Positions 10,667 through 35,309 of a stretch of 51,255 bases of DNA are shown one piece after another. Under the pieces are notes generated by a model. It searched no databases, was not told the origin of the DNA, and saw only the letters and a program-made list of their open reading frames with translations. Every line of letters begins with the position of its first letter. Position 1 is the stretch's first letter. Made by a program: the position numbers and the translations under genes. Source of the stretch: Acidobacteriota bacterium. GTDB lineage: Bacteria > Acidobacteriota > Holophagae > Acanthopleuribacterales > Acanthopleuribacteraceae. The stretch spans positions 1 to 51,255 of the forward strand of contig JAGQSC010000052.1 of NCBI GenBank assembly GCA_020439745.1. The letters are read 5' to 3'.

Positions 10667-11201
10667 GGACGTACCTCCCAGAGGCGCTCGGATTGAGCAG
10701 TGATGAAAAGCCGTCGCGAAACGAGTTTCTCGCACGGGTCAATGTAGACTCCACCGACTTTGGGCCAGCTTCCAGGCGCATGGCAATCTCATTCACCGAA
10801 AGGCCATCCAAGTATTTCCATGTAAGTACTTCGCGATATTTTGGATTGAGATGGTCAAGTGCCACATAGACCAACCGACTGAGTTCATTTTGCTCCAGCT
10901 CGGCATCTGGCGCCGTGGACGCAAGCGACTCAAGGGCGGCCCTTATTTCAGGCGAGTCTTCGGTTAACGAAACAGATGCGCGACCGTGTTTTTTCATGTG
11001 GTGACTGATTTCGTGGCGGGCAAACGTGCAGATCCAGGTGAACAGCGATGCTTCTCCTCGATAACTGGACAGTTTCTGAACGACGGCGCACAAGGTGGCT
11101 TGGGCAATCTCCTCAGCGGTTGATTCCAGGCCATTCACGCGCACTAAGACAAACCGATAAAGCCGTGGAAACATGTCGTCGAAGAAGGTCTTGAACGACA
11201 T
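10659..11201 (-). CDS. ECF RNA polymerase sigma factor (FecI-like role)
   Basis: About 180 residues from the ATG at 11199-11201 (MSFKTFFDDMFPRLYRFVLV); in-frame starts at 11219 (ATG) and 11276 (GTG) are possible but would add an atypical leader. Sigma region 2 covers the first 75 residues, including the core/-10-binding segment ESTAEEIAQATLCAVVQKL and SLFTWICTFARHEI. Region 4 is a helix-turn-helix near the C-terminus (LNPKYREVLTWKYLDGLSVNEIAMRLEAG). No region 3 is present, as expected for ECF factors. With the FecR and transducer genes immediately downstream, it most likely directs their expression or that of linked transport genes. Confidence 0.88.
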   Translation of the reverse strand: MSFKTFFDDMFPRLYRFVLVRVNGLESTAEEIAQATLCAVVQKLSSYRGEASLFTWICTFARHEISHHMKKHGRASVSLTEDSPEIRAALESLASTAPDAELEQNELSRLVYVALDHLNPKYREVLTWKYLDGLSVNEIAMRLEAGPKSVESTLTRARNSFRDGFSSLLNPSASGRYVHE

Positions 11202-11413
11202 TTCATTGCCGAACAACATGCCCCGCGTGAGATTGAGATCTTGCTGATGCACCGTCAAAAAGAAAGTCCCCCACACAGCCTATACGGTGTTAGAGGGCAT
11301 TGTTCATGAAAATCCTTCTAAAAAAATTTTGTGCGAAGGATTTTATCGCGAGGGGGCCTCATACAGGGTGGCGGTCGATAGATCGCAGATCGAATCAATT
11401 GGGAGATGAAACC

Positions 11414-15435: not shown

Positions 15436-17415
15436 ATGAAATACCTTTTGTTTTTGTTGCCTATTTGCGCCTTTGCGCAAACATCTCTAAATGAACGTGG
15501 TTTTGATCCTCGTGTTGATTACGAGCAACTGTACGATGATACGGTGTCCTTAGGCATTCCCTGGGATGATCGGAATCTCGACTTGACACTCGAAGATCTG
15601 GCGATTCTTCCCCCAACTGAGTTCGAGGATCGTCAAGCGATTCCCGTCTATTTTAGGGTGGGTTTGCGGCGGAACCTGCCACAATTGAGAAAAAGTGGCT
15701 CCGTCCAATATCCCCATTCAGCCGTGGAAGTGGTGCGCGTATTTTATGGAGGTCTCTATCGCGACGGCGTCTTTTCTGCTGACAAGGGCACTGGCATTAC
15801 AGTAAATAGCGAAGTGAACATCACCATGAACGCCGATTCCGCCGAGTCGGCAATCGCTATTAACCCTGTGGACCCAAGCAAGGTCATCGCGGGCGTCAAT
15901 GGACCGGGCGGCCAGAACATGTATTACTCTAATGACGGCGGCGCAACCTGGCAATTCGCACAAGTTCTGAGCGGCTCATGCTGCGATCCTACTGTGGACT
16001 GGTCTCCAGATGGAACCATTGCCTATGTGTCAACCTTGGGTAATTGTGGATTCTTCACGCTCTGCAACATTGAAATCTATACATCTACAAACAACGGCCA
16101 GAGTTGGGGGAACCAGGTATCCATCACCAACACCCAGGTTAGCGACAAACAATACCTGCACGTGGATCACGTACCTACCTCGCCTCATTTCGGCAATCTC
16201 TATGTGAGCTGGCATGATAACAACGTGCTCAAATTCGCGCGTTCAACCAACAACGGCGTCAGTTTTGATCCCATCGTTACCATGACGGGACCCCTGGGCA
16301 TTGGTAGCGATATTGCCTCGGACAGATCTGGCAACGTCTTCCACATATGGTCAAGCTATGCTAGCCAAACGGTTCGATTTGCGGTGTCCACGGATGGAGG
16401 CCAAACTTTCTCAAATGACGCGGTGATCACCACCGAGAACTCAGAGTTCAACTATCCCATACCGTGCTTTGATCAGAGACAAGTGCCGATCATTGTCAAT
16501 GCGACAGCTGACACAAGCACAGGCTCGTTTCAAGACAGAGTCTATGCCTGCTGGAATGACACACGTGATCCAGAAAGTACCACGCCCTCACAAAACCACA
16601 GCCAGATATGGGTGGCCTACAGTGATGATCTGGGCATGAATTGGAACCTCGTGAATCCACATCCCACCGCCGATGTGGGTACGGTAGACCGCTTTAATCC
16701 ATGGCTCGAGGTGGATCAGGACGGAACCGTTCATGTCATCTTCTATAGCACGCAAAACAACCCTAATCGTCTTGAGGCAGATATCTACCATGTTGCCTCC
16801 ACGGATGGTGGGCAGAATTGGAGTGTCCCACAGCGGGTTACGGCCACCAGCAGCAACTACATCAACGACAGCTTCCAGTTTGGCGACTACACAGGCATGT
16901 CTATCGTGGGAAATCAGATGCGACCCATTTGGACAGACAACCGCGCTTCAGTTGACGTTTTCACGGCCGAAATCACGACGAGCGGTGGCGGCGGAGACTA
17001 TGTACTAGTGGGACCAGCTACAACCACTGCAGGCTGCAAAAATGAGTCTCTGCCTGATATTGAGATTCAGGTTAACGCTGTTGGTGGATTCACAACGCCA
17101 GTATCGCTGACTTTGGGAACGCTTCCGTCGGGAATCACTGGCTCGATTGTTGGATCGCCAGTAACGCCGCCTGGAATGGCCATGGTTCAATTGACGACCG
17201 ATGGAACGGTTGCTGGTGGCATGCACGCAGTTAGTGTGCAGGGCGACGCGTTCGGCCTCATGCACGATGTCAATGTAGCGGTTTACGTGAGAGAAACGCC
17301 ATTGACAGACTTGTTGCCTGACTGGCTGGCTAACTTTGACCCGAACTACGACTTCAACGGAGACGGTGCACTGGACCTGATCGATTTCGCGTCGTTGATT
17401 AATTGTTACGAATAG
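15436..17415 (+). CDS. Secreted Asp-box (BNR/sialidase-fold) protein with C-terminal dockerin-like segment
   Basis: 659 residues from the ATG at 15436 (GGGGAG upstream); the longer frame lacks a good start. A clear signal peptide (MKYLLFLLPICAFAQ) leads to a pro-like region, then a beta-propeller with at least six Asp-box motifs: YSNDGGATW, STNNGQSW, STNNGVSF, STDGGQTF, SDDLGMNW, STDGGQNW. The sialidase catalytic Arg triad and FRIP motif are not obvious, so hydrolase activity should not be assumed. A beta-sandwich-like segment follows (about 535-620). The protein ends with a single dockerin-like calcium loop (DFNGDGALDLIDF) near the C-terminus. Such tails can mark secretion or cell-surface attachment. 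Confidence 0.75.
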   Translation: MKYLLFLLPICAFAQTSLNERGFDPRVDYEQLYDDTVSLGIPWDDRNLDLTLEDLAILPPTEFEDRQAIPVYFRVGLRRNLPQLRKSGSVQYPHSAVEVVRVFYGGLYRDGVFSADKGTGITVNSEVNITMNADSAESAIAINPVDPSKVIAGVNGPGGQNMYYSNDGGATWQFAQVLSGSCCDPTVDWSPDGTIAYVSTLGNCGFFTLCNIEIYTSTNNGQSWGNQVSITNTQVSDKQYLHVDHVPTSPHFGNLYVSWHDNNVLKFARSTNNGVSFDPIVTMTGPLGIGSDIASDRSGNVFHIWSSYASQTVRFAVSTDGGQTFSNDAVITTENSEFNYPIPCFDQRQVPIIVNATADTSTGSFQDRVYACWNDTRDPESTTPSQNHSQIWVAYSDDLGMNWNLVNPHPTADVGTVDRFNPWLEVDQDGTVHVIFYSTQNNPNRLEADIYHVASTDGGQNWSVPQRVTATSSNYINDSFQFGDYTGMSIVGNQMRPIWTDNRASVDVFTAEITTSGGGGDYVLVGPATTTAGCKNESLPDIEIQVNAVGGFTTPVSLTLGTLPSGITGSIVGSPVTPPGMAMVQLTTDGTVAGGMHAVSVQGDAFGLMHDVNVAVYVRETPLTDLLPDWLANFDPNYDFNGDGALDLIDFASLINCYE

Positions 17416-17778
17416 CTAGGTAGCCGCGGGTTCCGTCCGCCTGACGATTAGGAGCGCCTTCATCAATCCACGAGCTTCAAGAAACATATAAATAGCCTGA
17501 TACGTCTGATGCAGCCACCTTTCATCCAACCCCATGACTCGAAATCGAGCCCTGAGCGTTGGATCCGTGAGGTCGGGCGTGGATGCGACGTAAGTCGACG
17601 CCAGCGGAATGGCTCGAAGCACGGTCGTGTATTCATGAGTCGTGACGCGTTGACGGGTCCACTTGAGAATCAAACCTATCCCCATACGAGCCTGGGTCTC
17701 ATCAATGCCGATGCGGGCAGTAGTTTGCTCGATGAGGTCAGATTCCAGTGACAGCCAACAGGCAAAACAGATCAGCAA
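17416..17778 (-). CDS. Small DUF2780-like (VcgC/VcgE-type) protein
   Basis: 120 residues, TTG start at 17776-17778 only 3 bases after the stop of the large Asp-box gene; a CTGGAG ribosome-binding site overlaps that gene's end. A short hydrophobic leader (MLICFACWLSL) suggests export. The helical body (DLIEQTTARIGIDETQARMGIGLILKW ... LRAIPLASTYV ... LDERWLHQTYQAIYMFLEARG), quoted here in shortened form, resembles the DUF2780 pattern of a glycine-flanked helix, an Ala-Ile-Pro segment and a final helix-turn-helix pair. Family assignment is from pattern memory. Function unknown; probably cotranscribed with the upstream gene. Confidence 0.55.
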   Translation of the reverse strand: MLICFACWLSLESDLIEQTTARIGIDETQARMGIGLILKWTRQRVTTHEYTTVLRAIPLASTYVASTPDLTDPTLRARFRVMGLDERWLHQTYQAIYMFLEARGLMKALLIVRRTEPAAT

Positions 17779-17781
17779 GGT

Positions 17782-20700
17782 TCACTCCAGTGGAATGGCG
17801 TTTCCGATGGCTGGTTCTGCATAATCGTTAAAGACAAATGCCACGCCAACAAGGGGCGCATCTGATTCGGCGATTACGTAGACATCGCGGGCACTTGCTG
17901 GGAGAAGGCTGTTCACGACGGCAGCGAAAGGCCTCAAAGGCTCTAACGAAGACAGGGTGGTCTGATCTTTTAGGATCAATGCACCTTCTTGACTGAAAAA
18001 CGACAGCGTGACGGACGCAGATGCCGTGTCGGTCTGAACCACAACGGGAGCTGAAGTCATCCCTCCAAAAGTGGGCAGAAAAGGGAATAGCAGTCGCTTT
18101 CGAGCTTGGCTTTGAGGTCCAATGGCTACGGCCACACCTTGGGAAGGTGATTGGCCGGTCCCCGTTTGCAGATTGTAAGTTATCCACCTGCCAGCTAATT
18201 CAAGATTGGATTCCACCTCCACAGAGAATCCCAGACCATCGCCCAGCTCGGAAAACAACGCTCCGGCTGAGGCTTCCAGAAATCCATGTGCTGGGACCGA
18301 GGCTTGAGTCATGGCACTGTCGCCGTTGCTACGGCGGGCCGTTAACGAGATTATTGCTTCTTCTGCGTTGGGGTTATTAACGACCAAAATGGACTCAAAT
18401 TGGTTATTTTTTGAGATCCATGGATACAAGAGACGGGTGTCGCGAAATGCTGTGGCATTACCAATGGCCGGTTCTGCTCCGGCGTTGAAGGTAAATGTGA
18501 GGCCGGTCAGCGGCTGGTTTCCGCGCGCAATTACACTCAGATTTTCGGATGCATCCACCAAATCGCTCACAACGGCCGCAAAGGGCCTTAGAGGTGAAAG
18601 TTGTGTTACTGCGGCTTGATCTTCCAGCACAAGTTGTCCTGAAGCATTGTAGAACGACAGTGCAATGGCAGTTGGTTGATCCCCCAAATTCACGATGACC
18701 GGTGCCGATGTCCAGCCATCGACGGTGGGCAAATATCCCAATAGTAAGGACTGGTCTACAAAATCAGGATCCTGCCGAACAACCGCAACCCCTTGGGAAG
18801 GTGAAGCACCGGAAGCAGCATCCAGGTTCTGGGTGACCCAGTTCCCATATATGAGATCCTCGTAGGATGCCAAGGACACAGTGAACCCCGGTCCCTCACC
18901 TAAAGCCTCGAAAAGGGATGTCGTGGACTCTCGCAAAAAACCGTTGGGTGCGATGGTTCGCTTGATGGCGACCTCATCGCCGCTAGCGCGTCGCGCTGTC
19001 AAATTCACCAGCGCTTCTCTTTCGGACAAATTGTTGGCGACCAGGATGCTGTTGAACTGCTGATTGCTGGAAACCCATGGATAAATGAGTTCGCGCGTGG
19101 GCGCCGGCACCTGCCCTGACCCATTGACCGAGACCTGATCGATCGCCCAACCCCAACCCGCTACGGCCGGATCTGAGTAAAGCCGGAAGCGGACAAAAAC
19201 AACCTCACCAGGCATGAACGTCTGATTGATGTCGATTTCGTGAAGTTGATACATGGACTCGTCAGGGGAGGTGCCGGAATTGTAAGCATTGAGCCAGTTA
19301 CTGTTGGCACGTGAATCGTAGCCATCTGCCAGAGGAACCCAATCAATGCCGTTATTGCTAGCTTCTACGATGACGTAATCCCAGAACTGAGGATCACCAA
19401 ACACACCAGATCCTGTACCGGGTTCCACCAAGACCACATCCCGATATGCAATCAGGGTTTGCCCTGACTGAACTTGAATGGGTTTTTTCAACCAAAGCAC
19501 GTAATCCTGGCCTGTCGCGTAGGGGTGAGCGGTGTGTGCGGCACCATTTGAAAATCCATTGGGTACGGATCTTTGAAATCCTGCCGCTTGGAAATCTGTG
19601 AACTGAGTATCGGTGTCTAAGTTATTAGAATATTGAAGGACCGGTTCTGTGATGAATACCGCTATGCTGCGAGCGGCCGATTTGTATATTTGACCCGACT
19701 TATGAGCCGCCAGTGAAACCGTAAAAGTCCCATTTTGGACGACAGGCAGCCACAATTGTCTCTTTTCCAGTTCCGAATTCGCCGCCAGATCCAGTGCCAG
19801 TTGGCTATTGACAAAGACTTGGGTTCGTTCGTACTTGTCCCGCAGATCTATTTCTAGCAACACATCGCCTGTAGGGTGCATGGCCAGTTTGGCGATGCGT
19901 GGATTGATCACAGCCGTTGGCTTCTGGACCTCTAAGAGCTCGGGTATGGTGACAGACCAGATGCCAAGTCCTTGCGTGGCCGCGACGATCTGGTCCTCGA
20001 TAATGTTCAACTGAAAGATGGCTACATGTGGCAGTCCGTTGTCGGCATAGCTCCATGAAGTGCCGCTGTCAGTAGAGACAAAAAGGCCGATTTCGGTGCC
20101 GGCCCATAGTTCTGCGGGCCTGTGGGGCATGACGAGCAACGAAAAAACGGCTACATTGGGAAATCCATTCGAACTGATGCCCGCGTTCCCAGCAAATCCG
20201 GACAAGTCCTGCCAGGATTGTCCCAGGTCGTCGGTCATTAGGACTTTTTCTGCGCCGGGAGCCGAAAAGAGCAGGTAGGCTGTATCCCGGTCCAGCGGAT
20301 GCGTGGCCACACCAGATGATTCATCAACCGTGTTGGGAAGTGACGTAACCTCTCGGAACGTGAGCCCACTGTCTTCTGAAACATAGATGCCGCCACGCAA
20401 GCCACTGGGCGGGTCGATGGAGCGACGAGACGTCGCCCACACCACTTGCGGCGCGATGGAGGAGATTTCAACATTGTCAAAAGGCCGGTACCCAATCCAG
20501 CCACCGGGAAGTGTTGACAAGGTCCAGTCCATACCGAAATTGTCCGAGCGACCAATGCCATTGGAACCCACGGCGAATACCAAGTCTGGGTCTGGACTGC
20601 CGGATGCGATTTTGGTGATAAATGGCTGAAACCCCAGTGCTGGAACTGAAAACGACTGCCAGGTTTGACCTGCATCCAGAGAGCGCGCAAAGCCTCCACT

Positions 20701-22446
20701 TTGAGACCCTCCCAAAAGCCAGTTGGGGTTGGCATCATTCCAGACTGCTTCAAATCCGTCTCCGCCAATTACGTGACGCCATATGGATTGTGGATTGGGG
20801 TCAGCACCCGAGAGCCATGTTCCGTTGTCTTGCGTGCCGCCTATATAGCTGTTGCTTCCCGGCTGCTTATCCACACCGTAGAATTGGGTGGTTTGCATGC
20901 CGGTCAACTGTACCCAGTTCAGTCCACCATCCTGAGAGAATCCCACGCCGCCATCATTGCCGTCCAAAATCCAGAATTGCTGGCTTGCGGGATTGATGGG
21001 CACACATACCAACGCGTGGTGGTCGGCATGCACGAAGGGAAGGCCAACACTCACAAGCCAGTTGCTGATCTGTGAGGCCCGTCGGGTGTTGTTGTTGGCG
21101 TTAACGTCAATACGAAATAGGTTCACACCTCCTACGAACACTACGTTGGGGTCAAAAGGGTGAACCGCAAGGGTGTTGTCAAACCAACCCGCTGTATAGG
21201 CGCCGGTGGCGCCTGATTGACTGAACGCGTTGAACCAGTTGGGGTCGTTGCCCGTGTCGGGTAAAAGAAGCCAGGTATCGCCCCCATTGCGCGACATATA
21301 GAGATCCGCAATACCTCGAGGGCGTTCGACAGCTGCGTACAGACGGTCTGGATCGGTGGGTGCAATCGCCATCTCAATTCGTACGGAAATGCCCGCTAGC
21401 CCGAATCCATTTCCAGAAGGGTTGCCAATGTCGGCAGGAAGAGCCATGTTATTTGCGACCACTTGCCATGTCTCTCCCGCGTCGTTGGATCGGATCACGC
21501 CCACCTCATTGACGGTAGCGAATAGACGCGAGAAGTTGTTGGGGTGGTGGACAAGCTGCTGAACGCGATTGTCGGTTTGGGTTCCAAATGTGGCATCGGA
21601 ATCAAAAACCACCCGCCACGAGAGACCTCCATCAGTACTCTTAAAAATGGCGGATTTCCGATTACCTCCCTTGGTACCAAGATGGCTGAAACTGTCATTC
21701 GTGCAGGCCAGCAAAACGTTGGCATTGGAGGGGTCGACGACAATTCGGTTTACGGCTTCGAGCAAAGCGCCTCCGGCCGTACTTTCCAATTGAAACCAAG
21801 TTTCGCCATGATCGATGGACTTCCAGATTCCGGATCCAGCTAGCTCCACTACGCGACCATAGCCCATCCCTGTGGCTGCATAAAAAATGTTGGGCGCGGA
21901 CGGTGCTTGAACAAGCCAGGTAGTTGAGAGCGCGGCGAGCTCTGGCGATTGGAAGGACCAATTGGACCCAGCGTCGGTAGTCTTCCAGATGCCGCCGCCT
22001 ATGCTGGCGACAAACCATGTTCGGTGGGTGGTGTCACTTGCATCAACCACCACACAACGGACTCTTCCACTTACATTTCCGGGTCCGCGCCAGGTCCAAG
22101 GTAACATTTCTGATGGACCCTTTTTGCGGTGTTCCGCCAAGCGGCGTTCATGGACCAGGTAATTGGAAGCGTAGGTTTCACCATTGGGGCCCGTTTTGAT
22201 TTGTGCAAACGCTTCCATGAGCTGATCAGGGTAATCCTGGGTGATTTTGGCTCTTACCTTGGCTGTCTCCATGCGGATGAGCGCTCCGCGTTTTGAGTCC
22301 GGCTCGACTTGGAAATAGGCGTCGGCCAGTTGTTTGAGGATCCCTTGAGGCGACGTGTCTTGAGGTCTTCGCGAATGAGATGGCCAGAACAACACAAGCA
22401 CCGAAAAGATGATCACGACAATGGATCGTAACGTGGTGCGGCGCAT
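17782..22446 (-). CDS. Large secreted Asp-box propeller protein with duplicated C-terminal beta modules
   Basis: 1554 residues with an N-terminal signal anchor (residues 7-24). Residues about 110-860 form one or two beta-propellers with roughly eleven Asp-box motifs (for example TTDAGSNW, SIDHGETW, STDGGLSW, SNDAGETW, STDSGTSW), as in Vps10/sortilin-like and xyloglucanase-like folds. A jelly-roll segment at about 960-1115 (WDYVIVEASNNGIDWVPLAD; WGWAIDQVSV) resembles the accessory domain of immune-inhibitor-A-type proteins. Residues about 1122-1338 and 1339-1554 are a tandem duplication of a 216-residue module. No LPxTG, PEP-CTERM or Por tail is visible. It may bind or hydrolyse polysaccharide, but no catalytic site can be named. 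It lies 100 bases downstream of the response regulator gene. Confidence 0.8.
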   Translation of the reverse strand: MRRTTLRSIVVIIFSVLVLFWPSHSRRPQDTSPQGILKQLADAYFQVEPDSKRGALIRMETAKVRAKITQDYPDQLMEAFAQIKTGPNGETYASNYLVHERRLAEHRKKGPSEMLPWTWRGPGNVSGRVRCVVVDASDTTHRTWFVASIGGGIWKTTDAGSNWSFQSPELAALSTTWLVQAPSAPNIFYAATGMGYGRVVELAGSGIWKSIDHGETWFQLESTAGGALLEAVNRIVVDPSNANVLLACTNDSFSHLGTKGGNRKSAIFKSTDGGLSWRVVFDSDATFGTQTDNRVQQLVHHPNNFSRLFATVNEVGVIRSNDAGETWQVVANNMALPADIGNPSGNGFGLAGISVRIEMAIAPTDPDRLYAAVERPRGIADLYMSRNGGDTWLLLPDTGNDPNWFNAFSQSGATGAYTAGWFDNTLAVHPFDPNVVFVGGVNLFRIDVNANNNTRRASQISNWLVSVGLPFVHADHHALVCVPINPASQQFWILDGNDGGVGFSQDGGLNWVQLTGMQTTQFYGVDKQPGSNSYIGGTQDNGTWLSGADPNPQSIWRHVIGGDGFEAVWNDANPNWLLGGSQSGGFARSLDAGQTWQSFSVPALGFQPFITKIASGSPDPDLVFAVGSNGIGRSDNFGMDWTLSTLPGGWIGYRPFDNVEISSIAPQVVWATSRRSIDPPSGLRGGIYVSEDSGLTFREVTSLPNTVDESSGVATHPLDRDTAYLLFSAPGAEKVLMTDDLGQSWQDLSGFAGNAGISSNGFPNVAVFSLLVMPHRPAELWAGTEIGLFVSTDSGTSWSYADNGLPHVAIFQLNIIEDQIVAATQGLGIWSVTIPELLEVQKPTAVINPRIAKLAMHPTGDVLLEIDLRDKYERTQVFVNSQLALDLAANSELEKRQLWLPVVQNGTFTVSLAAHKSGQIYKSAARSIAVFITEPVLQYSNNLDTDTQFTDFQAAGFQRSVPNGFSNGAAHTAHPYATGQDYVLWLKKPIQVQSGQTLIAYRDVVLVEPGTGSGVFGDPQFWDYVIVEASNNGIDWVPLADGYDSRANSNWLNAYNSGTSPDESMYQLHEIDINQTFMPGEVVFVRFRLYSDPAVAGWGWAIDQVSVNGSGQVPAPTRELIYPWVSSNQQFNSILVANNLSEREALVNLTARRASGDEVAIKRTIAPNGFLRESTTSLFEALGEGPGFTVSLASYEDLIYGNWVTQNLDAASGASPSQGVAVVRQDPDFVDQSLLLGYLPTVDGWTSAPVIVNLGDQPTAIALSFYNASGQLVLEDQAAVTQLSPLRPFAAVVSDLVDASENLSVIARGNQPLTGLTFTFNAGAEPAIGNATAFRDTRLLYPWISKNNQFESILVVNNPNAEEAIISLTARRSNGDSAMTQASVPAHGFLEASAGALFSELGDGLGFSVEVESNLELAGRWITYNLQTGTGQSPSQGVAVAIGPQSQARKRLLFPFLPTFGGMTSAPVVVQTDTASASVTLSFFSQEGALILKDQTTLSSLEPLRPFAAVVNSLLPASARDVYVIAESDAPLVGVAFVFNDYAEPAIGNAIPLE

Positions 22447-22546
22447 GGGTTCCTCCGACTGATTGGCTTGTTTTAAGCTTAGGCCGAGCGACGAGGTTTT
22501 GCCATGGGTCCGGGTACTTAATTCATTGAGTACTGTTGCTCATGAG

Positions 22547-23173
22547 TCAGACGTCAACGAGGTCTGACCTGTGGAACAAGGCATATTCAAGGAGTTTGTT
22601 GTAGCCTCGTATCTCTAACTTGCGGCACATATTCGCCCGGTGATTTTGCACCGTTCGCAAGCTCAGATCGAGTTCATCGGCGATTTCGCGGCTGGTGTAG
22701 TTTTCGGAAATCAGACGCAAGACCTTCAGTTCGCTTTGGGTGAGTAAGTTCAATTCGTTGCTTTTTCGGCCGTTCCTAACCAACAGGTCCGTTAATGATG
22801 GGCTGACAAACCGTTTTCCTTTGACGACCTGTCGGATACATCGCACCAGTTCATCCACGGCGCATTCCTTCAACAAATAACCCCAGGCGCCTTGATTCAT
22901 GGCCTCTTTGAAAAACGCGTCGTCGTCATACATGGTGAGCATGATGACGCGTACGTTGTCACCCTGCAGGTGCCTCAAGGCCTCTATCCCATTGAAATGG
23001 GGCATAGATACGTCGAGTACAGCTATTTCCGGTTTTAACTCATGAATCAATTCCACAGCTTGCGCCCCATCACTGGCTTCTCCCACCACGACCATATCGG
23101 AGTTGTCAGCAATGACATTGACGAAGCCTCGACGAACAATTGGGTGGTCGTCTGCGATCACGATACGAATCAT
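22547..23173 (-). CDS. NarL/LuxR-type response regulator
   Basis: 208 residues. The receiver domain has the acidic pocket IADDHP, the phospho-acceptor D54 in AVLDVSMP, the switch Thr in VIMLTMYDDD and the conserved Lys in YLLKE. The C-terminal LuxR helix-turn-helix is at about 145-190 (LTQSELKVLRLISENYTSREIADELDLS, shown split: LTQSELKVLRLIS, YTSREIADELDLS, RTVQNHRANM). The start codon overlaps the histidine kinase stop by 4 bases (ATGA), so the two form a cognate pair. Likely targets include the adjacent propeller-protein genes, by position only. Confidence 0.93.
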   Translation of the reverse strand: MIRIVIADDHPIVRRGFVNVIADNSDMVVVGEASDGAQAVELIHELKPEIAVLDVSMPHFNGIEALRHLQGDNVRVIMLTMYDDDAFFKEAMNQGAWGYLLKECAVDELVRCIRQVVKGKRFVSPSLTDLLVRNGRKSNELNLLTQSELKVLRLISENYTSREIADELDLSLRTVQNHRANMCRKLEIRGYNKLLEYALFHRSDLVDV

Positions 23174-26100
23174 CGAGAACCTTCTAGCGGCATGCTGATC
23201 TTAATGCGCGTGCCTTGATTGGGTGCTGAATGGATGGAGAACGTCCCTCCTGAAAGGCGCATACGCTCGGCCATCCCTGTCAAGCCCAGACCATTTGACG
23301 CATGGGCGCGATTGAATCCACATCCATCATCCCATATTTCCAGTTCAAAGCGATTTCCGCCGTGGCGGGAATAAACGCCAGCCTGTTTGGCTTTGGCGTG
23401 ACGGCAAATATTGGTGATCGCCTCTTGAACCAGTCGGTATACATGAATCTCAAATTCCTTGTTGAGTTGGGGCCATTCAGATAGATCACAACTGAACTCG
23501 GTGTCCGCAATATGTCTCGCTTTTTCAAGAACGGCTTCAATAGCTTTGACACAACCCAGGCGATCGAGCACGTGCGGGTGCAACTGATGTGAGATATTGC
23601 GAGACTCCTCAATGGCGTGTAACACGTACTCAGGCAGTTCACCAATGGCATCCTTGGCTTCCGGCTGTTTTTGGAGAAAGCGAAGGAGGTCGGTTCTGAT
23701 AGCCATCAACGTTTGACTGAGCCCGTCATGGAGTTCAATGGCGAGACGACGACGTTCACGTTCCCGTGAATCAATGAGCTCCTTGGAAAACGCATCCCGC
23801 ACAGCCTGTAATCGTTTTCGGTTGAGGAACCTGTGTCGCCACCACAGTCCCAGTGTCGTGCCAATCAGAGAGACAAATATCAAGCGGAACCACCAAGTGC
23901 CCCAAAACGGTGGCAAAACGTGGATGGTCAGGGAACGACCCACGGAATCCCAAACACCGTCACTGTTGCTGGATACTACGTCTAGTTGATAGGTCCCGGC
24001 AGGCAGGTGAGGATAGCTGACAAATCTGCGATGAGACGGATCACTCCACTGGTTATCCAGGTGACGCAGGCGGTAGCGGAACTTATTCAAGGATGGGTTG
24101 GTAAAGTCCATGGCTGCGAATTCAACCGAGAACACCGAGTCTTTGTGACTCAAAGTGATGTCATCAATCTCGTTAAATGAAGTCGTGGATTGGTAGGGGA
24201 GTCCGGAAACGAGGAGTGATGTGAAGACGGTTTTCGGGGGGATCTCATTGCGACGAATGGTGGTGGGATCGAAATAGGTAAACCCTGAAACCCCTCCGAA
24301 TAGCAGTTTCCCATTTGGTAACGAGGTATATGCGCCGGTGTTGAATTCATTGCTTTGCAGGCCGTCGGAAACGGTGTAGTGCAACATCTCCTTGGTATCC
24401 GTGTGCAGCCGTGTTAGGCCGCGATTAGTACTCATCCAAAGATACACACCGTCAGACAACAATCCATAAACCACATTGTTCGCTAGGCCATCGTAGGTGG
24501 TGAGCGATTCAAAGGTGTCACTGGATGGATGGAAAAGGTTTAGGCCCGCTCCGTACGTGCCAACCCAAATTCGGTCCTTATAGTCTTTCAGAACAGAGGT
24601 GACAATGGGACTGCTCAGACCGCGAGAAGCATCCAACACGTGAACCGTGCTACCGACCAGGTGAAACAGGCCCTGCCCTGCGCTACCGACCCATAAGGAG
24701 CCATCGTCGTCAGGCATGATGCAGCTGACCGAAGTCATATCACTTGTCACCTGTCGCACCTCGTTTTTTTCAGAGACAAGCCACAACCCAAATCCCAGCG
24801 TACCAGCCAGGACACCTTCCTTGGTAGCAAGGAGAGCGGAAATATGCGGGCGCAGGGCTTGTTCGCCGCGCTTGAGTGAGACGTCTTGGATGTCGGTGAT
24901 TTCTATATGGTCGGAGTGGTCATGTGTGTCCATGCGGAGTAGCCCATTGCGCGAACCCACCCACAACACGTTGCTGGGATGCTCGAGCAGGCACCCGATA
25001 TGGTCGTTGGGACATGGTCCGTCGTCGCATGGCCAAGCTAGATCGACAAAGTCGGATATGAGTGGGTCGTAAAGGTAGACGCCCTGGTTGGAACCGACCC
25101 AGAATCTCCCATCAGATCGGGGCGCAAAGCTGTAGGTGAGAGCTGTACGCATGGCGTCAATAGATGGCGTGATGGTTTTGAACGATTGTTTGAGATGCGT
25201 GACTTTGTGGATGCCACCCAGTACGGTGCCAATCCAGAGATTACCCGCGTGGTCATCCAGGAGCGCGACGACATTGTTGGAAAGAAGGCTATTGCTGTCT
25301 TGTGGGTTGTGTCGGGACGTGTTGTAGGAGACGCCATCGAATGCAGTGACACCGCCGGTTGTACCGATCCATAGCCTGCCGTTTGGCTCGCGTTCAAAGG
25401 CGTTCACGACCGGAGAAGGTAGGGGTGGGAGGACAACTTGGTTGAGCAGTTTACGCCATGTGTCGGCCTGATCTTGGGTAAGCGTGTGTATTTGGATGCC
25501 GTAAAACCAACGTGCATCCGGTGGTACGGCATTCCATGCAGCGGGGTCATGGCTCTCATCTGATACCACGTTCGCGACATAACTACCTTTTTCAAGCCGG
25601 ATGACCTCTCGATGAACTCGATTCTTGAGAGACCCTCCAGCGTGTCGTCCCTGTCCCATCTCCCAAATACGGCGATGCCCGTTTTGGATCCATGCGGTAT
25701 CCGCGCGTTGCCCCAGCCCCTCGCCAACGGCTGTCACCAACACGTCTGTTTCATGGTCGAGATAGAACAGCTCACTTGAGTGCTGGTGCTTTTGAACGAT
25801 GGGTACTGACGCCACAAGTTGACCCTCGTTTGGATCTGCTGCAGCCTTGTCCGAATATTGTTGATAAGTAGGCCCCTCACCCCAACCCATGTATGACACA
25901 GGTATGTGATCTTTGAGCTGGGTCGCACCTCCGTTGGTCCCTATCCACACACTGCCATTTGGCTCCGTAAAGATTGTATTGATGGACGAGGCCGAGAGTT
26001 GATCTGGCAATTCCTGGGTTGCGGTCCATTCTTTTAGCTGTTGAGGGTGGTCCACCTCCCAGATGGTGATGCCCCAGTTTTGCGACCAAGGTGAGGTGGG

Positions 26101-27081
26101 CGGGGCTGCGTTGAATGATCCTGGGTGGTGGGAGTCGTCTGCATGCCACGTGATTTGATAAGAACCTGGATCAAGGCGAAGGACATCGGCTTGGACTCGG
26201 TTCTTGGCCGAACCGCCGGCGTGACGGGCGAGCTGTGGCTGCATGCTCCAGCGCAGGCTGGGTCCTGAGATCTCGCCCCAGTCAAAGCGGTCGTTGAGTG
26301 CCTCGCCCACACAGACCACCAACACATCCGTCGTTTTCGCGATCTCAAAAGAGGCCGTTTCATCAAGGCCCGTGCGCAAACCTATGATCGGTGGTTGTGC
26401 GGCGAGATCCATGGGTAGCGGCGCGTACTTCAGCGATAATGGATAGGGAATCCTACCAAGCCAGCTGGTGTGTGTGCGGTTGGGATCGAAGATGTGTAGG
26501 CCGGTGGTTGTTCCGATATAGAGGGTTCCATCGTCAGCCTCAGCGAGTGCGCGAACTGGGGCGGCACACACTAATGGCGCATTCCAATCGGAAGTAACTG
26601 AACGAAACTGATCCTCGGATTTGATTTTGCGGTATAGGCCCGCACTGGTTCCTGCCCAAACGGTTCCTTCGTGATCCACAAGTACCGCTGTGACTTGACT
26701 TTCCAAGTATCTCTCAAAGCGTTGGGTGCCACGGTCCAGACGGTTAATGCCGTTACGAGTGCCGATCCAAAGGTGGCCGTGATGATCTTCGTCCAGAGCA
26801 AAGATCCAGTCATTGGAAATAGAGTCTGGCACCTTGGGGTCGTGGGTGAAGATCTGGAATTGGTAACCGTCGTACTTATTGAGCCCGTTGGCAGTTCCAA
26901 ACCAAAGGAACCCGAATCTGTCCTCCATGGCACAAAACACACTGCTCTGCGATAAGCCCTCGGCCAGGCCAATGCGTTCCATTCTTATGGGCGGTTTCTG
27001 CCCCCAACTGTGAGCCGCAGCCAAGATGATGCAAAGAGCGCGCATGCTCGAGCATATCTCGAATGGGATCGAAACCGCCAT
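23170..27081 (-). CDS. Hybrid-architecture sensor histidine kinase: two-component propeller, Y_Y_Y, HisKA_3
   Basis: About 1303 residues from the ATG at 27079-27081; a GTG at 27087 and an ATG at 27045 are alternatives. An export signal (ALCIILAAAHSWG) leads to Reg_prop repeats with the hallmark LWFGTANGLNKYDG, LWIGTRNGINRLD and LWIGTTGGVTAFDG motifs. Two copies of an unrelated about 100-residue domain are inserted among them. A Y_Y_Y domain (FRYRLRHLDNQWSD), one membrane helix (about 1055-1075), a HisKA_3 dimerisation domain with phospho-His (RRRLAIELHDGLSQTL) and a HATPase domain (DDGCGFN, GLGLTGMAERM) complete it. The periplasmic propeller probably senses an extracellular carbohydrate or related ligand, as in homologous Bacteroidetes systems; that is inference. 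Partner: the LuxR-type regulator downstream. Confidence 0.9.
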   Translation of the reverse strand: MAVSIPFEICSSMRALCIILAAAHSWGQKPPIRMERIGLAEGLSQSSVFCAMEDRFGFLWFGTANGLNKYDGYQFQIFTHDPKVPDSISNDWIFALDEDHHGHLWIGTRNGINRLDRGTQRFERYLESQVTAVLVDHEGTVWAGTSAGLYRKIKSEDQFRSVTSDWNAPLVCAAPVRALAEADDGTLYIGTTTGLHIFDPNRTHTSWLGRIPYPLSLKYAPLPMDLAAQPPIIGLRTGLDETASFEIAKTTDVLVVCVGEALNDRFDWGEISGPSLRWSMQPQLARHAGGSAKNRVQADVLRLDPGSYQITWHADDSHHPGSFNAAPPTSPWSQNWGITIWEVDHPQQLKEWTATQELPDQLSASSINTIFTEPNGSVWIGTNGGATQLKDHIPVSYMGWGEGPTYQQYSDKAAADPNEGQLVASVPIVQKHQHSSELFYLDHETDVLVTAVGEGLGQRADTAWIQNGHRRIWEMGQGRHAGGSLKNRVHREVIRLEKGSYVANVVSDESHDPAAWNAVPPDARWFYGIQIHTLTQDQADTWRKLLNQVVLPPLPSPVVNAFEREPNGRLWIGTTGGVTAFDGVSYNTSRHNPQDSNSLLSNNVVALLDDHAGNLWIGTVLGGIHKVTHLKQSFKTITPSIDAMRTALTYSFAPRSDGRFWVGSNQGVYLYDPLISDFVDLAWPCDDGPCPNDHIGCLLEHPSNVLWVGSRNGLLRMDTHDHSDHIEITDIQDVSLKRGEQALRPHISALLATKEGVLAGTLGFGLWLVSEKNEVRQVTSDMTSVSCIMPDDDGSLWVGSAGQGLFHLVGSTVHVLDASRGLSSPIVTSVLKDYKDRIWVGTYGAGLNLFHPSSDTFESLTTYDGLANNVVYGLLSDGVYLWMSTNRGLTRLHTDTKEMLHYTVSDGLQSNEFNTGAYTSLPNGKLLFGGVSGFTYFDPTTIRRNEIPPKTVFTSLLVSGLPYQSTTSFNEIDDITLSHKDSVFSVEFAAMDFTNPSLNKFRYRLRHLDNQWSDPSHRRFVSYPHLPAGTYQLDVVSSNSDGVWDSVGRSLTIHVLPPFWGTWWFRLIFVSLIGTTLGLWWRHRFLNRKRLQAVRDAFSKELIDSRERERRRLAIELHDGLSQTLMAIRTDLLRFLQKQPEAKDAIGELPEYVLHAIEESRNISHQLHPHVLDRLGCVKAIEAVLEKARHIADTEFSCDLSEWPQLNKEFEIHVYRLVQEAITNICRHAKAKQAGVYSRHGGNRFELEIWDDGCGFNRAHASNGLGLTGMAERMRLSGGTFSIHSAPNQGTRIKISMPLEGSR

Positions 27082-27124
27082 AAGCACAGGTACTCGGTGT
27101 GGCGAAGTACCCCGTCTTTTATGT

Positions 27125-30100
27125 TCAAGGCATCGAACAATCCAAAGGATCTGACAGGTTGATATACATCAGATCAAGCACGGTGATTATGCCGTCATCG
27201 TCGGGATCGCCGGGGTATAGGTCCCGCCATTCGGCGCCCAATTCCCACAGATCGTATTGATTGTTACAGCCGTCGCCGTTGATGTCTTCATAGCCGGAAT
27301 TGATGGCGACGAGCACCACCGCTGTATCAGAAACCGTCAACATCGTTGCTGAATCCGTCACAGAGACTTCAAAAACAGTGGTCTCAACTGGGGGTGGATC
27401 CAGCAGGATGCCATAACCTACGGCGGTCATCGGTGTGGGAGGATCGGCATCCCAAGTGACCATGGCTGATCCATCCAGGCATCCAATATCCACACCAATC
27501 TGTGGTGGGTTCAGGCCTAAGGCTTGGGCCGATGGATTGGTGGTGGCCGAAAGGGTACCGCCAACTGTTAATAGGGCGCCATCAGTCATTGCAGAACCAC
27601 ATGTCCCCAACACGTTACAGGTATAAAGGCCTTCATCGGAGACATTCGCAGATGTGATAACCAGGGTAGCCGAGGTGGCTCCGATAAGGTCGATTCCGTC
27701 TTTACGCCATTGATATGTAAAGGGTCCGGGACCGGAGGGGACCACCGTAAATGTGGCATCCAGGCCAGAGCAGATCGACTGATTATCTGGATGCGAGAAA
27801 ATTATCGGTGGCCCTTCCACTTCGAGCAGGGCAGGAAGCGTGGTGACTGAGCCACAACTATTTGTGATGCGGCATGCATAGAATCCTGCATCAGCAAAAG
27901 TGATGTCGCTGACGTGATAGGAAGCCATGGTTGCGCCCGGAATATCAGCGCCGCCAAAGGTCCATTGGAATCCCGTAGCCGTGCCAGTGGTTTCCACGAT
28001 GGAGAATGTAACCGATCCACCTGTGCAGCGGAACTGTGAGGACGGGTGAGCACTGAATAGGGGTAGTGGCGTCACATCAAGGGTCGCTGCGGCGGACTCC
28101 ACAGAACCACAACCATTGCTGACGACGCAGGTATAGGAACCGATGTCCGAAACAGAAACGTCGGTCAACATCAGCATGGCACTGGTTTCTCCGGCTATCT
28201 CGACCCCGTCCAGGCGCCATTGGAATGATTCGGCATTGCTCGCGGTAACCGAGAAACTGACCGTATCGCCTGCGCAAACAGACTGACTGATGGGTTGCCA
28301 ATCAATGACGATCATTTGTGTCACGGTCACAGTGGCTGGAACGGAAACGGTCTCCAGACATCCATTTGAAACCACACAAGTGTAGTCGCCTGCATCGGCA
28401 ACGGCAACGGGATCCAGGACCAGCGTACTACTATTGGCACTGGGTATCGGCGATCCATTTTTGTGCCATTGGTAAAGCACATCTCCACCATTGATTGCAG
28501 TCACCGAAAGCATGATGCCGTCGCCCACGCAGGCCGTCGTACTTTCGGACTGGGCTACAATCTCGGGTTCCAAACAAGGTGTCATGCGAGCTACGAAGGC
28601 ATCCGTGGAACCGTTAGGTGTGACATCGTAGGCCATTGGGGTGGTCGGGAACGCGTTTGATGTAGTGCCGGTCAGGTAAAGATCGCCGGTATTATCAATG
28701 GCGATGCCTAAACCATCATCGCGACTTTCACCGCCCAAAAAGGAGCTGTACTCCAAAGCATCGCCTGTTTTGGATACTTTGCTGACGAACGCATCGGCCG
28801 ACCCGTTGAATGTCACATCGAACGATCCTGCCCGTGTTGGGAATCCTGTGGATGTCGTCGTTCCAGTAATGCAAGCCCGTTCGTGCCAAAGTGTAATGTC
28901 TCGACCGGAATCCGAACTTTCACCGCCTAAGAAAGAGCTGAACACAAGATCGCTCCCCGTTTGATTTAATTTTGCAATGAACGAGTCGGTATATCCGCCG
29001 TTATAACTGGTATCAAAGGCACCCATTGTGGTGGGGAAGTCCATCGAACGGGTATCTCCAGTGATGTAGAGTTCACCGGCCGTGTCAACTGCGGCCGCAC
29101 GAGCGACTTCATAACTCGTTCCACCAATGTATGTGGCATAAAGCAGATCGGTTCCTGTCTCACTGAGTTTCACGGCAAAAGCATCTCCCGATCCAGAGTT
29201 GGTACCGGAGTAGGCACCCATGGTGGCCGGGAAATCGGTGGAATAGGTCTCGCCCACCACATACACGTTCTCCAATTCATCGACGGCCAAACCATAAGCG
29301 CGTTCCGTTGACGATCCGCCGACGAAGGTAGAAAAGACGAGGCCTGTTCCGGCACTATTCAGGCGTACGGCGAATAGGTCTGCACTTCCATTATGGGTGG
29401 TGTCAAAACCGCTTGCTGGCATCGGGAAGTCGCTGGAGCTTGTGTATCCAATGACGATCGCCTCGCCTGATGATGTGCCAACGACGCCATGACCATCGTC
29501 ATCCGTTGAACCGCCCAAGTAGGTGCTGTAATTTAGGGCTGACCCGGTGTTATTCAAGGACACGACAAAGGCATCCTTGGTCCCTGCAAGTGATGCTTGA
29601 AAGCAGCCACTGCTTACTGGGAAATCGGTGGACCAGGTGGTGCCCGTTATCCATGCGTTACCGCTACCATCGACAGATATATCTGCACCTTCGTCGGAAC
29701 CGCTTCCGCCGACAAAGGTTGCATAGGTCAAAGCATCGCCCGAAGCCGGCATTTTTGCGACAAACACATCCTTGTCACCAGAAAAGGCCGTGCTGAAGGC
29801 GCCGACCGTGGTTGGAAATCCGGCCGACGAAGTAGTACCAGTGATGTAGACGTTGCCAGAGCTGTCCAGGTCTACCGCAACACCACTCTCCCCGCCAGAA
29901 CCTCCTAAAAAGGTGGAAAAGATGAGGCTCGAGCCATCCGTACTGAACTGGGTTATGAAACCATCCGTGGCTCCATTATGGCTCGTGTCGTAGGCGCCAG
30001 GCGTGGAGGGAAATCCAACTCTGCAGGAACCCGAAATGGTTGGATTTCCAGAAGGTCCAAGCGCAATACACGCACTGCGGTCTTCGTCTGGGCCTCCCAA

Positions 30101-32053
30101 AAATGAGCCGTAGATAAGTGTGGAGCCGTCATCGTTCAATTTGACGATAAACCCATCTCCTTGACCGTTTATTGTTTGATCGTAAGCACCCATCGTGGAC
30201 GGGAAGTCGCTGGAGTACGTCTCACCGGTGACATAGGCATTACCACCTGCATCAAGGGCTAAACCGGTGGCTAGATCAAAGGAGAATCCTCCAATCCAGG
30301 TGGCATAGATCAAGGCAGACCCCAAGGCATTAATTTTTGCCACGAAGACATCTTCATTGCCGTTATGGCTGGTGTCATAGGCACCTGGTGTCACAGGGAA
30401 GTCTGATGAAAGTGATTCACCGGTCACGAATACCTGTCCCGAGGTGTCGACAGCAAGACCGTTGAGCCATTCCTCGTCGCTGCCACCTAAGAAGGTGCCA
30501 TAGATAAGAGAGGACAAGCTGGCGTTGAGCTTCAACACAAAACCGTCCTGATAGCCAGCAAAACTGACCTGCAAAGAGCCGACTGTTGCCGGGAAATCGG
30601 TTGATGTGGTGAATCCTCCCACATAGACGTTGCCGGCAACATCCTGAGCCAAACCGGTCGTGTATTCGCTTGCTGCACCTCCGACCAGGGTGGACTGTAG
30701 GAGGTCAGAACCCGTGTTGTTGATACGGCTGACAAAGACGTCGTATCCGCCATTGTGGGTCACATCGTAAGCCGATGGTGTTGTCGGGTAGTCTGAGGAA
30801 TAGGTCTGTCCGGTTACAAGAATGTTACCGGTGGTTTCCAGGACGAGATCAGTTGCAAATTCTGTGGATGTCCCTCCTAGTAGGGTAGAGAAGTCAAGTG
30901 CTGTGCCGGTTGGATTGATTTTGCATAAAAAGGCATCCCCAAATGAGTCATTGGTCGTGTCATAGGCGCCCGGGGTGGTGGGAAAATCAGTTGACCCGGT
31001 GGCGCCGACAACGTAAACGTGACCCGTGGCATCGACCGCTAACCCGTATGCAAGGTCATTGTGCGTGCCACCCAAATAAGTGGCGTAGCCTAGGCTGCTT
31101 CCGTCAAAGGCTAGTTTGCAGACAAAGATGTCGTAATAACCGCCGTTCCAACTGGCGTCAAGTGCACCTGGCGTGGTGGGGAAATCAGCGGATGGGGTGC
31201 TTCCTGTGACGAAAATATGGCCACTACCGTCAATCGCCAGCGCTTCAACCGATTCTTCCAGATCGCCACCGGGCCCGCCAAGAAACGTGCTCCAAGAGAG
31301 TTGAGGGTCGACAATCAACGGAAATGAGGCATTGTATGAGTCACATTCGATGCCAATCGCACCATCATCCAAGATGAGATAATTGGCGCTCACCACCTGT
31401 TTTGTTCCATTGATGATCTGATATGCGTGCGGCTTGCCCAGAGTCATCTGGGCATCGTTGAGTTGTATTTCGAGGGCACCGTCCCGTCCGCTCCAAATGT
31501 CGCGAGCACCAGTCTCCAAGCGGATATCTTGCACCTTTGCCCCTGGAAGAATCTCCATCTCCAACCCGAGTTGGCTCATGGAACTGCGGTAAGTGATTGA
31601 GATCCCAGGCCATATGTCTTCATAAACCAGTGCTTCATACGCATCCACGTCGATTTGCCAATCGGAGGCGGGACCACGAAGAAAATTCAAATGTGTCTCT
31701 ACGGGTTGACTTAGTTTGGGCTGCAATGTCTCATTGAAACCCATTCTTAGGACCGTCCCGATTTGATGATTATGATTGAGTGTTTTCGCTGCATTTTGGG
31801 CCGAATTGGGCGCGCCTACCTGGTTGGGGATGTACATGAAGGCACCTTCGCCAGTAAATAGCACTCGGCCCATTGGTGTTTGGGCAAAGGCGACGACGTC
31901 GTCGTTGTCGATCAGACGGGACCCGCTCTTCGCTGTAGCTTGATTGGAGACAAAGTAGCTCGGTGTGGTCTGGATTCTGGAAATGGGTGATTCTGTCTGA
32001 CCTAGGACAGGAATGTGGGCCACCGCTAAGGTCAATAAGACGCGCAAGTTCAT
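27125..32053 (-). CDS. Giant secreted SBBP-repeat protein with four Ig-like domains and dockerin-like tail
   Basis: 1642 residues, ATG at 32051-32053 with a GGAG ribosome-binding site; signal peptide MNLRVLLTLAVAHIPVLGQ. Residues about 25-260 match the N-terminal domain common in SBBP proteins (ending near SFPLIVDPQLSW). Fourteen SBBP repeats of about 60 residues follow, each starting with a variant of YSTFLGGxxxD/E and containing the GNxYVTGxTxSxDFPTT pattern. About four Ig-like domains come next, each with paired Cys and YTCVVSNGC-like strands. The tail has two dockerin-like calcium loops (DINGDGCNNQYDL, DPDDDGIITVLDL). Such proteins are usually surface-exposed; ligand unknown. The histidine kinase gene follows after 43 bases or less, so both may share a transcript. 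Confidence 0.88.
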   Translation of the reverse strand: MNLRVLLTLAVAHIPVLGQTESPISRIQTTPSYFVSNQATAKSGSRLIDNDDVVAFAQTPMGRVLFTGEGAFMYIPNQVGAPNSAQNAAKTLNHNHQIGTVLRMGFNETLQPKLSQPVETHLNFLRGPASDWQIDVDAYEALVYEDIWPGISITYRSSMSQLGLEMEILPGAKVQDIRLETGARDIWSGRDGALEIQLNDAQMTLGKPHAYQIINGTKQVVSANYLILDDGAIGIECDSYNASFPLIVDPQLSWSTFLGGPGGDLEESVEALAIDGSGHIFVTGSTPSADFPTTPGALDASWNGGYYDIFVCKLAFDGSSLGYATYLGGTHNDLAYGLAVDATGHVYVVGATGSTDFPTTPGAYDTTNDSFGDAFLCKINPTGTALDFSTLLGGTSTEFATDLVLETTGNILVTGQTYSSDYPTTPSAYDVTHNGGYDVFVSRINNTGSDLLQSTLVGGAASEYTTGLAQDVAGNVYVGGFTTSTDFPATVGSLQVSFAGYQDGFVLKLNASLSSLIYGTFLGGSDEEWLNGLAVDTSGQVFVTGESLSSDFPVTPGAYDTSHNGNEDVFVAKINALGSALIYATWIGGFSFDLATGLALDAGGNAYVTGETYSSDFPSTMGAYDQTINGQGDGFIVKLNDDGSTLIYGSFLGGPDEDRSACIALGPSGNPTISGSCRVGFPSTPGAYDTSHNGATDGFITQFSTDGSSLIFSTFLGGSGGESGVAVDLDSSGNVYITGTTSSAGFPTTVGAFSTAFSGDKDVFVAKMPASGDALTYATFVGGSGSDEGADISVDGSGNAWITGTTWSTDFPVSSGCFQASLAGTKDAFVVSLNNTGSALNYSTYLGGSTDDDGHGVVGTSSGEAIVIGYTSSSDFPMPASGFDTTHNGSADLFAVRLNSAGTGLVFSTFVGGSSTERAYGLAVDELENVYVVGETYSTDFPATMGAYSGTNSGSGDAFAVKLSETGTDLLYATYIGGTSYEVARAAAVDTAGELYITGDTRSMDFPTTMGAFDTSYNGGYTDSFIAKLNQTGSDLVFSSFLGGESSDSGRDITLWHERACITGTTTSTGFPTRAGSFDVTFNGSADAFVSKVSKTGDALEYSSFLGGESRDDGLGIAIDNTGDLYLTGTTSNAFPTTPMAYDVTPNGSTDAFVARMTPCLEPEIVAQSESTTACVGDGIMLSVTAINGGDVLYQWHKNGSPIPSANSSTLVLDPVAVADAGDYTCVVSNGCLETVSVPATVTVTQMIVIDWQPISQSVCAGDTVSFSVTASNAESFQWRLDGVEIAGETSAMLMLTDVSVSDIGSYTCVVSNGCGSVESAAATLDVTPLPLFSAHPSSQFRCTGGSVTFSIVETTGTATGFQWTFGGADIPGATMASYHVSDITFADAGFYACRITNSCGSVTTLPALLEVEGPPIIFSHPDNQSICSGLDATFTVVPSGPGPFTYQWRKDGIDLIGATSATLVITSANVSDEGLYTCNVLGTCGSAMTDGALLTVGGTLSATTNPSAQALGLNPPQIGVDIGCLDGSAMVTWDADPPTPMTAVGYGILLDPPPVETTVFEVSVTDSATMLTVSDTAVVLVAINSGYEDINGDGCNNQYDLWELGAEWRDLYPGDPDDDGIITVLDLMYINLSDPLDCSMP

Positions 32054-32110: not shown

Positions 32111-32156
32111 AAAAACGGACAAGGTTTTTAAATCTTTTTTTTGGCTTAGGTCCGTT
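32111..32156 (-). terminator. Possible terminator after the kinase-TPR gene
   Basis: On the minus strand a 7-bp stem (AACGGAC / GTCCGTT) closes an A-rich loop of about 29 bases and is followed by a short T run (GTTTTTAG). The left arm overlaps the kinase stop codon. The long loop makes this a weak candidate, and read-through into the SBBP gene is plausible. Confidence 0.35.
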
Positions 32157-34668: not shown

Positions 34669-35238
34669 TCAGTCCTTTTGACGCAATCGTTGGAACAACC
34701 AGTTTTTAGAAAAATGCCAATCCCGTTGTACCGTCTTTTCCGTAACGCCCAATATGCTGGCCATTTCGCTCATGGTCATGCCGGCAAAAACCTTCATCTC
34801 CACTATTTTTGCCTTGCGTACGTCGTGTTGCTCAAGTTCCTGCAGGACGCTGTCGACCCCCAGAATATCATCGAGAAGGACCGAGCCTCCAGAGTCATTT
34901 TCGTCGAGGGTTCTGAGCGACTCCTGGCCACCTCGCTTTATCGCCTGCTTCTGACGAGCCAGATCCACAAGAATATGCCGCATGATTTGACCGGCCAGGG
35001 CAAAGAACTGGAGTCGATTCTGAAAAACGAGTTCCTTGCCTTCCGCTAATCTGAGATACGCCTCGTTAATGAGTTCGGTGACCTGAATAGACTGAGGGCT
35101 CGATCTGTTTTTCGCAGATCGAGCCAGTATCTTAAGCTCACTGTGGACCAGAGAAAACATCTGGTCTCGAGCCGTACTGTCGCCCGCTTGCCACGCAGCC
35201 AGTAAATGGGTGATATCCGGCTGTACCATGCACGACAT
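34669..35238 (-). CDS. ECF sigma factor of the type commonly linked to Ser/Thr kinases
   Basis: 189 residues from the ATG at 35236-35238 (GGTGG upstream); an internal ATG at 35229 is equally usable, and the longer frame is a read-back. Region 2 motifs include DITHLLAAWQAGD near the start, VTELINEAYLRLAE and FFALAGQIMRHILVDLARQK. Region 4 is an HTH at the C-terminus (MTMSEMASILGVTEKTVQRD, then WHFSKNWLFQRL). This pattern matches the ECF subgroup abundant in Acidobacteriota and Planctomycetes that is often cotranscribed with a kinase (TIGR02999-like). No anti-sigma gene is visible, which fits regulation through the adjacent kinase. Confidence 0.9.
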   Translation of the reverse strand: MSCMVQPDITHLLAAWQAGDSTARDQMFSLVHSELKILARSAKNRSSPQSIQVTELINEAYLRLAEGKELVFQNRLQFFALAGQIMRHILVDLARQKQAIKRGGQESLRTLDENDSGGSVLLDDILGVDSVLQELEQHDVRKAKIVEMKVFAGMTMSEMASILGVTEKTVQRDWHFSKNWLFQRLRQKD

Positions 35239-35309
35239 TGTACCACCGCAGGCTACCGAGGGCTTCGCCGGCTCATGTGGTAAGCATCGATGACCGATAA
35301 TGGAGATCG

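Follow-up and report, generated by a model that had tools for sequence, protein, structure and literature searches.

A conserved, probably single-target two-component unit within a partly fortuitous cluster of beta-propeller genes in an Acidobacteriota bacterium

The window analysed here is an entire contig (51,255 bp) from the 5.1-Mb draft genome of an Acidobacteriota bacterium (G000), and it contains a histidine kinase (HK) and a response regulator (RR) which, on balance, appear to form a two-component system whose main, and possibly only, promoter target is predicted to be the gene for a secreted 11-Asp-box protein (17782–22446), with a DUF2780 gene behind it. The genes are conserved among relatives, they are linked in two genera, and the putative regulatory site in front of the target is conserved as well, including in genomes where the target is unlinked from the regulators. 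The unit is thus a conserved and probably single-target one, inside a cluster of propeller genes that is probably in part fortuitous. Comparisons were made with family genomes G001 (same genus), G002, G003, G004, and G005 and G006 (second genus); one of the family's genomes consists of a single 11,786,365-bp contig.

Locus organisation and domain content

The original prediction placed four classes of propeller protein around one two-component system, and this description is borne out by motif counts and Pfam, the classes found being BNR, Sortilin-Vps10, Reg_prop with Y_Y_Y, HisKA_3 and HATPase, Response_reg with GerE, and SBBP with Ig_3 and DUF7948. The HK (23170–27087, minus strand; 1305 aa) has Reg_prop (155.6 bits) and Y_Y_Y (55.4 bits) matches that both exceed the cut-off, HisKA_3 and HATPase domains, and a phospho-acceptor at His1120, and the RR (22547–23173, minus strand; 208 aa) is a LuxR/NarL-type regulator with Response_reg (94.8 bits) and GerE (50.6 bits) domains and the phospho-acceptor Asp54 in place. 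The proposed target (minus strand) encodes a secreted protein of 1554 aa with a Vps10-like double propeller, in which 11 Asp-boxes lie in the propeller part (~720 aa) and one Asp-box-like match in a later domain; its Sortilin-Vps10 match scores 68.2 bits against a cut-off of 33. Across its family, parts of the HADHH and GNDGG motifs show little or no variation. No PDB sequence match was found for this protein, and the NCBIfam family glycosyl_F510_1955 fell below cut-off. Its two C-terminal repeats (residues ~1118–1551) are also seen at the ends of numerous further family proteins and are a possible sorting or anchoring tail; a DUF5719 match to them is weak.

On either side lie two further propeller genes, one encoding an SBBP/Ig secreted protein with 14 SBBP anchor motifs (27125–32053, minus strand) and the other a secreted protein of 681 aa with six Asp-boxes (15436–17415, plus strand). 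Both had been credited with dockerin-like tails, but these are weak: Dockerin_1 matches the 681-aa protein with E = 0.094 (13.4 bits vs a cut-off of 22.9), and at E ≤ 0.1 it is not among the Pfam matches of the SBBP protein. The latter has an Ig/tail end (residues ~1424–1640) that many otherwise different secreted proteins of the family genomes have in common.

Four genes were correctly described as sharing a strand with gaps of 100 bases or fewer. The SBBP gene and HK are separated by 37 bp, HK and RR overlap by 4 bp, and RR and the Asp-box gene are 100 bp apart; the DUF2780 gene (17416–17778, minus strand; 120 aa, DUF2780 E = 2e-6) follows 3 bp after the Asp-box gene as a fifth. The short gaps would permit transcription to read through from the SBBP gene. 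A consensus scan for promoters and terminators gave matches no more numerous than in shuffled sequence, and a plasmid search returned distant Reg_prop proteins only.

Elsewhere in the window, an ECF sigma factor, a FecR and a TonB-dependent receptor lie in a row at 7113–11276, as a FecIRA-like cell-surface signalling set, and at 32155–38390 another ECF sigma factor (34669–35550) adjoins two divergent Ser/Thr kinase-TPR genes. A similar ECF/kinase-TPR pair, of low identity, precedes the HK in G001. The two upstream ECF/STPK pairs were considered as counterparts and rejected; their layout is similar and their likeness no greater than that of other pairs.

Conservation of the neighbourhood

Both families concerned are abundant, with about 25 Reg_prop/Y_Y_Y sensors and seven long Asp-box genes in this genome, and across three genomes the Asp-box genes with a Y_Y_Y sensor no more than 8 kb away number six, where 2.3 are expected (P = 0.026). 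As the enrichment is mild and the families are common, adjacency of this kind is by itself weak evidence, and conservation across relatives, rather than adjacency, is the real test of the cluster. Part of the enrichment is contributed by a second, separate Asp-box and Reg_prop pair kept in G003, G005 and G006 (L153 6755–15436; L155 4624–13116; L156 7425–15854), in which the Asp-box proteins are 55% identical and to which G004 has a diverged counterpart. Two more Asp-box genes of the present genome directly adjoin Reg_prop genes (loci L162 and L163).

Orthologues of the 1554-aa Asp-box protein occur in five other family genomes at 45–64% identity, and the RR has one clear orthologue in each of G001, G003, G004, G005 and G006 (47–68%), the next matches being at most 39%. 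For the HK, the sensor parts of the six proteins are not united in a tree. The kinase part resolves the orthology: the kinase domains of the six group together, apart from four class-level kinases, with 100/100 support. Other Reg_prop proteins fetched from the family are without a comparable kinase domain. The gene order in G001 is HK–RR–Asp-box–DUF2780, with identities of 45, 67, 65 and 41%, respectively, the DUF2780 orthologue having the same position as here, while in G005 and G006 the order is Asp-box–HK–RR. Linkage is looser in the remaining genomes, and this counts against the circuit proposed below. In G003 the Asp-box orthologue lies ~90 kb from an adjoining RR (832,686–833,321) and HK (from 833,644), and in G004 the three genes are on separate contigs, with no HK among the neighbours of the RR. 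In G002 the RR orthologue, a full-length Asp-box orthologue and the exact palindrome described below are all absent.

The SBBP and six-Asp-box genes behave differently, as their homologues are scattered in the relatives, away from the HK, RR and Asp-box genes, and the SBBP position in G001 is taken by an unrelated ECF/STPK pair. The conserved linkage, together with the position of these homologues elsewhere, therefore confines the unit to three, perhaps four, genes: judged from sequence comparison, it comprises the HK, the RR, the 11-Asp-box protein and perhaps DUF2780, and the SBBP and six-Asp-box genes look like bystanders. Accordingly, the neighbourhood check proposed with the original prediction upholds only part of the cluster, that is the HK, the RR and the large Asp-box protein, whose orthologues are neighbours in two genera (G001, and G005 and G006) and dispersed in G003 and G004. 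A polysaccharide deacetylase gene that adjoins the six-Asp-box gene here was not seen beside the six-Asp-box orthologues, and was dropped as a clue to a polymer for that reason.

A palindrome upstream of the Asp-box gene

Comparison of the DNA before the Asp-box orthologues yielded the pattern TGAGYA-N4-TACTCA, which in the window takes the form TGAGCAACAGTACTCA (22527–22542, minus strand), 80 bp upstream of the start codon of the Asp-box gene, and is proposed as a binding site for the RR. An extra direct half-site, TAAGTA (22515–22520, minus strand), read from the aligned contexts, follows 6 bp after the palindrome. The exact palindrome occurs as a single copy in its own 5.1-Mb genome, and it is also found before the Asp-box orthologues of G001, G004 and G005, including the G004 gene that is unlinked from the HK and RR; G001 and G004 each have one extra exact match elsewhere. 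No exact match was found in G003, where a genome scan run after the pattern had been fixed located a one-mismatch copy 352 bp before the unlinked Asp-box gene; there are ten or so such places genome-wide, and by our arithmetic the chance of one falling within 400 bp is ~3e-4. The palindrome is thus exact or has one mismatch before the Asp-box gene in five of six genomes, and in the sixth, G006, its copy is degenerate. The third half-site has the form TRRGTA and lies at +6 in three genomes (G000, G001 and G003) and at about +17, one helical turn further, in G005 and G006.

As the pattern was scored partly on its own sources (four sites), only the G003 copy and a leave-one-out test are independent; in the leave-one-out scans the expected site was the best every time, with 3–42 of 4321 background windows equal or better, true sites included. 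Inverted repeats accompanied by a further half-site are a usual arrangement for regulators of the NarL/LuxR type. We infer that TGAGYA-N4-TACTCA is most naturally bound by the RR. A motif search had been suggested upstream of both 22446 and 32053, and it succeeded for the first of these only: no comparable site was found before the SBBP gene, the HK, the RR or the six-Asp-box gene, nor before a second Asp-box copy in G004. A larger regulon was considered and rejected, one-mismatch sites being no commoner than with a reversed-pattern control.

Inserted beta-sandwich domains in the kinase sensor

The HK was originally described as a Reg_prop sensor, and Reg_prop and Y_Y_Y domains are indeed present, but the sensor is not propeller only: it also contains two copies of an inserted domain of ~120 aa, here termed the 'KNR/DDSH' domain. 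Copy 1 spans HK residues 233–347 (26047–26391, minus strand; HMM E = 1e-27) and copy 2 residues 422–538 (25474–25824, minus strand; HMM E = 3e-30). The domain is present in the kinases of G001, G003 and G004 and absent from those of G005 and G006. For the window copies Pfam gave nothing at E ≤ 10, and there was no match in NCBIfam or among PDB sequences; relatives of the domain give weak GOLD and DUF5013 matches.

A single scan, with one genome per species, found 77 loci that carry the domain (L076–L152), in Acidobacteriota, Calditrichota, Ignavibacteria, Bacteroidota/Rhodothermota, Gemmatimonadota, Zixibacteria, Planctomycetes and others. It occurs as four tandem copies in secreted proteins of ~580 aa, at the C-termini of beta-lactamase-like hydrolases, one of them with CBM9, and, in other phyla, as a single domain within Reg_prop sensors with HisKA or SpoIIE outputs, where it aligns with copy 2 of the HK. 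The AGGxxKNR and DDSH...WN motifs are conserved and define a new family, and their conservation may suggest a binding site.

An AlphaFold2 model of copy 2 is an all-beta sandwich (pLDDT 90.2, pTM 0.84), while a model of the whole sensor (pLDDT 63, pTM 0.39) had the first insert misaligned and was set aside. Foldseek with the domain model returned nothing at E ≤ 0.001. The nearest folds by VIA-align were PPC/collagen-binding 5sv5 (Z 8.0, 2.8 Å over 89 residues), the GOLD structure 5azy (Z 7.0) and CUB, with Z at a level common among unrelated beta-sandwiches and ~10% identity; the inserted domain is like the PPC/collagen-binding and GOLD beta-sandwiches in fold and differs from them by this low identity and by its two motifs. 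A tentative reading, which we would hold with some reserve, is that it represents an undescribed extracytoplasmic ligand-binding family of many phyla, found in Reg_prop sensors, secreted tandems and serine hydrolases, and that it might give the HK a second input besides the propeller.

Comparison with known systems

The closest known parallel is with the hybrid two-component sensors (HTCS) of Bacteroides polysaccharide utilisation loci (PMC3243724; PDB 4a2l, 3v9f), which likewise place Reg_prop propellers and a Y_Y_Y domain before a histidine kinase; the sequence match of the HK to 4a2l has E = 2e-86. The Bacteroides HTCS usually control an adjacent locus, as appears to be the case here. They are, however, single hybrid polypeptides with AraC output, whereas this HK ends after HATPase_c and the RR is separate, with GerE; the HK also differs in its two inserted domains. 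The predicted target is one Asp-box protein, and no SusC/SusD pair was seen next to it or elsewhere among the window proteins scanned (a subset of the ORFs); a TonB receptor that has an ECF sigma factor and a FecR of its own lies ~13 kb from the RR. The target shares 11 S-x-D-x-G-x-T-W motifs and a Sortilin-Vps10 match above the Pfam cut-off with Asp-box/Vps10-type propellers (PMC2716378), but differs in being bacterial and secreted, with lineage-specific C-terminal repeats and no assigned enzyme family.

Alternative explanations

The original prediction was that all four propeller proteins are co-regulated and belong to one surface machine that senses and captures a polymer. Every protein is predicted to be secreted or membrane-bound, and the short same-strand gaps would allow the genes from SBBP through DUF2780 to be transcribed together, yet the SBBP and six-Asp-box homologues sit apart from the unit in relatives, on which ground this four-propeller unit was rejected, and neither gene has the upstream site. 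The ECF/STPK pair at the SBBP position in G001 tells against it also, and the genome has a single cohesin match (35.5 bits), which gives little sign of a dockerin scaffold; we regard a machine of this extent as very unlikely. The opposite view, that abundant families have been juxtaposed by chance with no functional link, draws on the numbers of sensors and Asp-box genes and on the modest enrichment for proximity, but it is hard to reconcile with orthologous linkage in two genera, with a near-unique conserved palindrome, and with the joint absence from G002 of the RR, the target and the exact site, and we give it equally little credence.

It is a little easier to imagine, if still unlikely, that the palindrome belongs to another regulator and that the RR acts on other genes. 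The palindrome also precedes the unlinked Asp-box genes of G003 and G004, neither the HK nor the RR was found to have a site of its own, and the pair could act elsewhere. Set against this, RR and target co-occur in six genomes, with five good sites and one degenerate, all of them missing in G002, and the inverted repeat with its extra half-site is a form common among NarL/LuxR-type regulators.

Proposed circuit and significance

In the circuit that we favour, in which the RR acts on the Asp-box gene, the membrane HK would use its Reg_prop/Y_Y_Y propellers and the two inserted beta-sandwich domains to read an extracytoplasmic ligand and would phosphorylate the RR, which may then bind TGAGYA-N4-TACTCA and the third half-site and presumably switch the Asp-box gene on. 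The ligand may be an oligosaccharide. Bacteroides Reg_prop/YYY sensors control the locus for a polymer and bind oligosaccharides derived from it (PMC3243724), and a glycan is plausible here by analogy with these relatives of the sensor. A polymer substrate, capture at the surface and the sensing of products by the kinase propeller, as the original prediction has them, would likewise be drawn from this analogy only. Sensor and ligand may differ among the relatives, since the G005 and G006 kinases are without the inserts and the sensor tree splits the HKs.

The analysis separates a conserved unit from bystanders within a striking gene cluster, and it brings to light a secreted domain, widespread and unnamed, in the sensors of several phyla. 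If the proposed circuit holds, it would be a one-target system, with a predicted binding site, for a Reg_prop sensor outside Bacteroidota, the ligand of which could be found by reporter screening.
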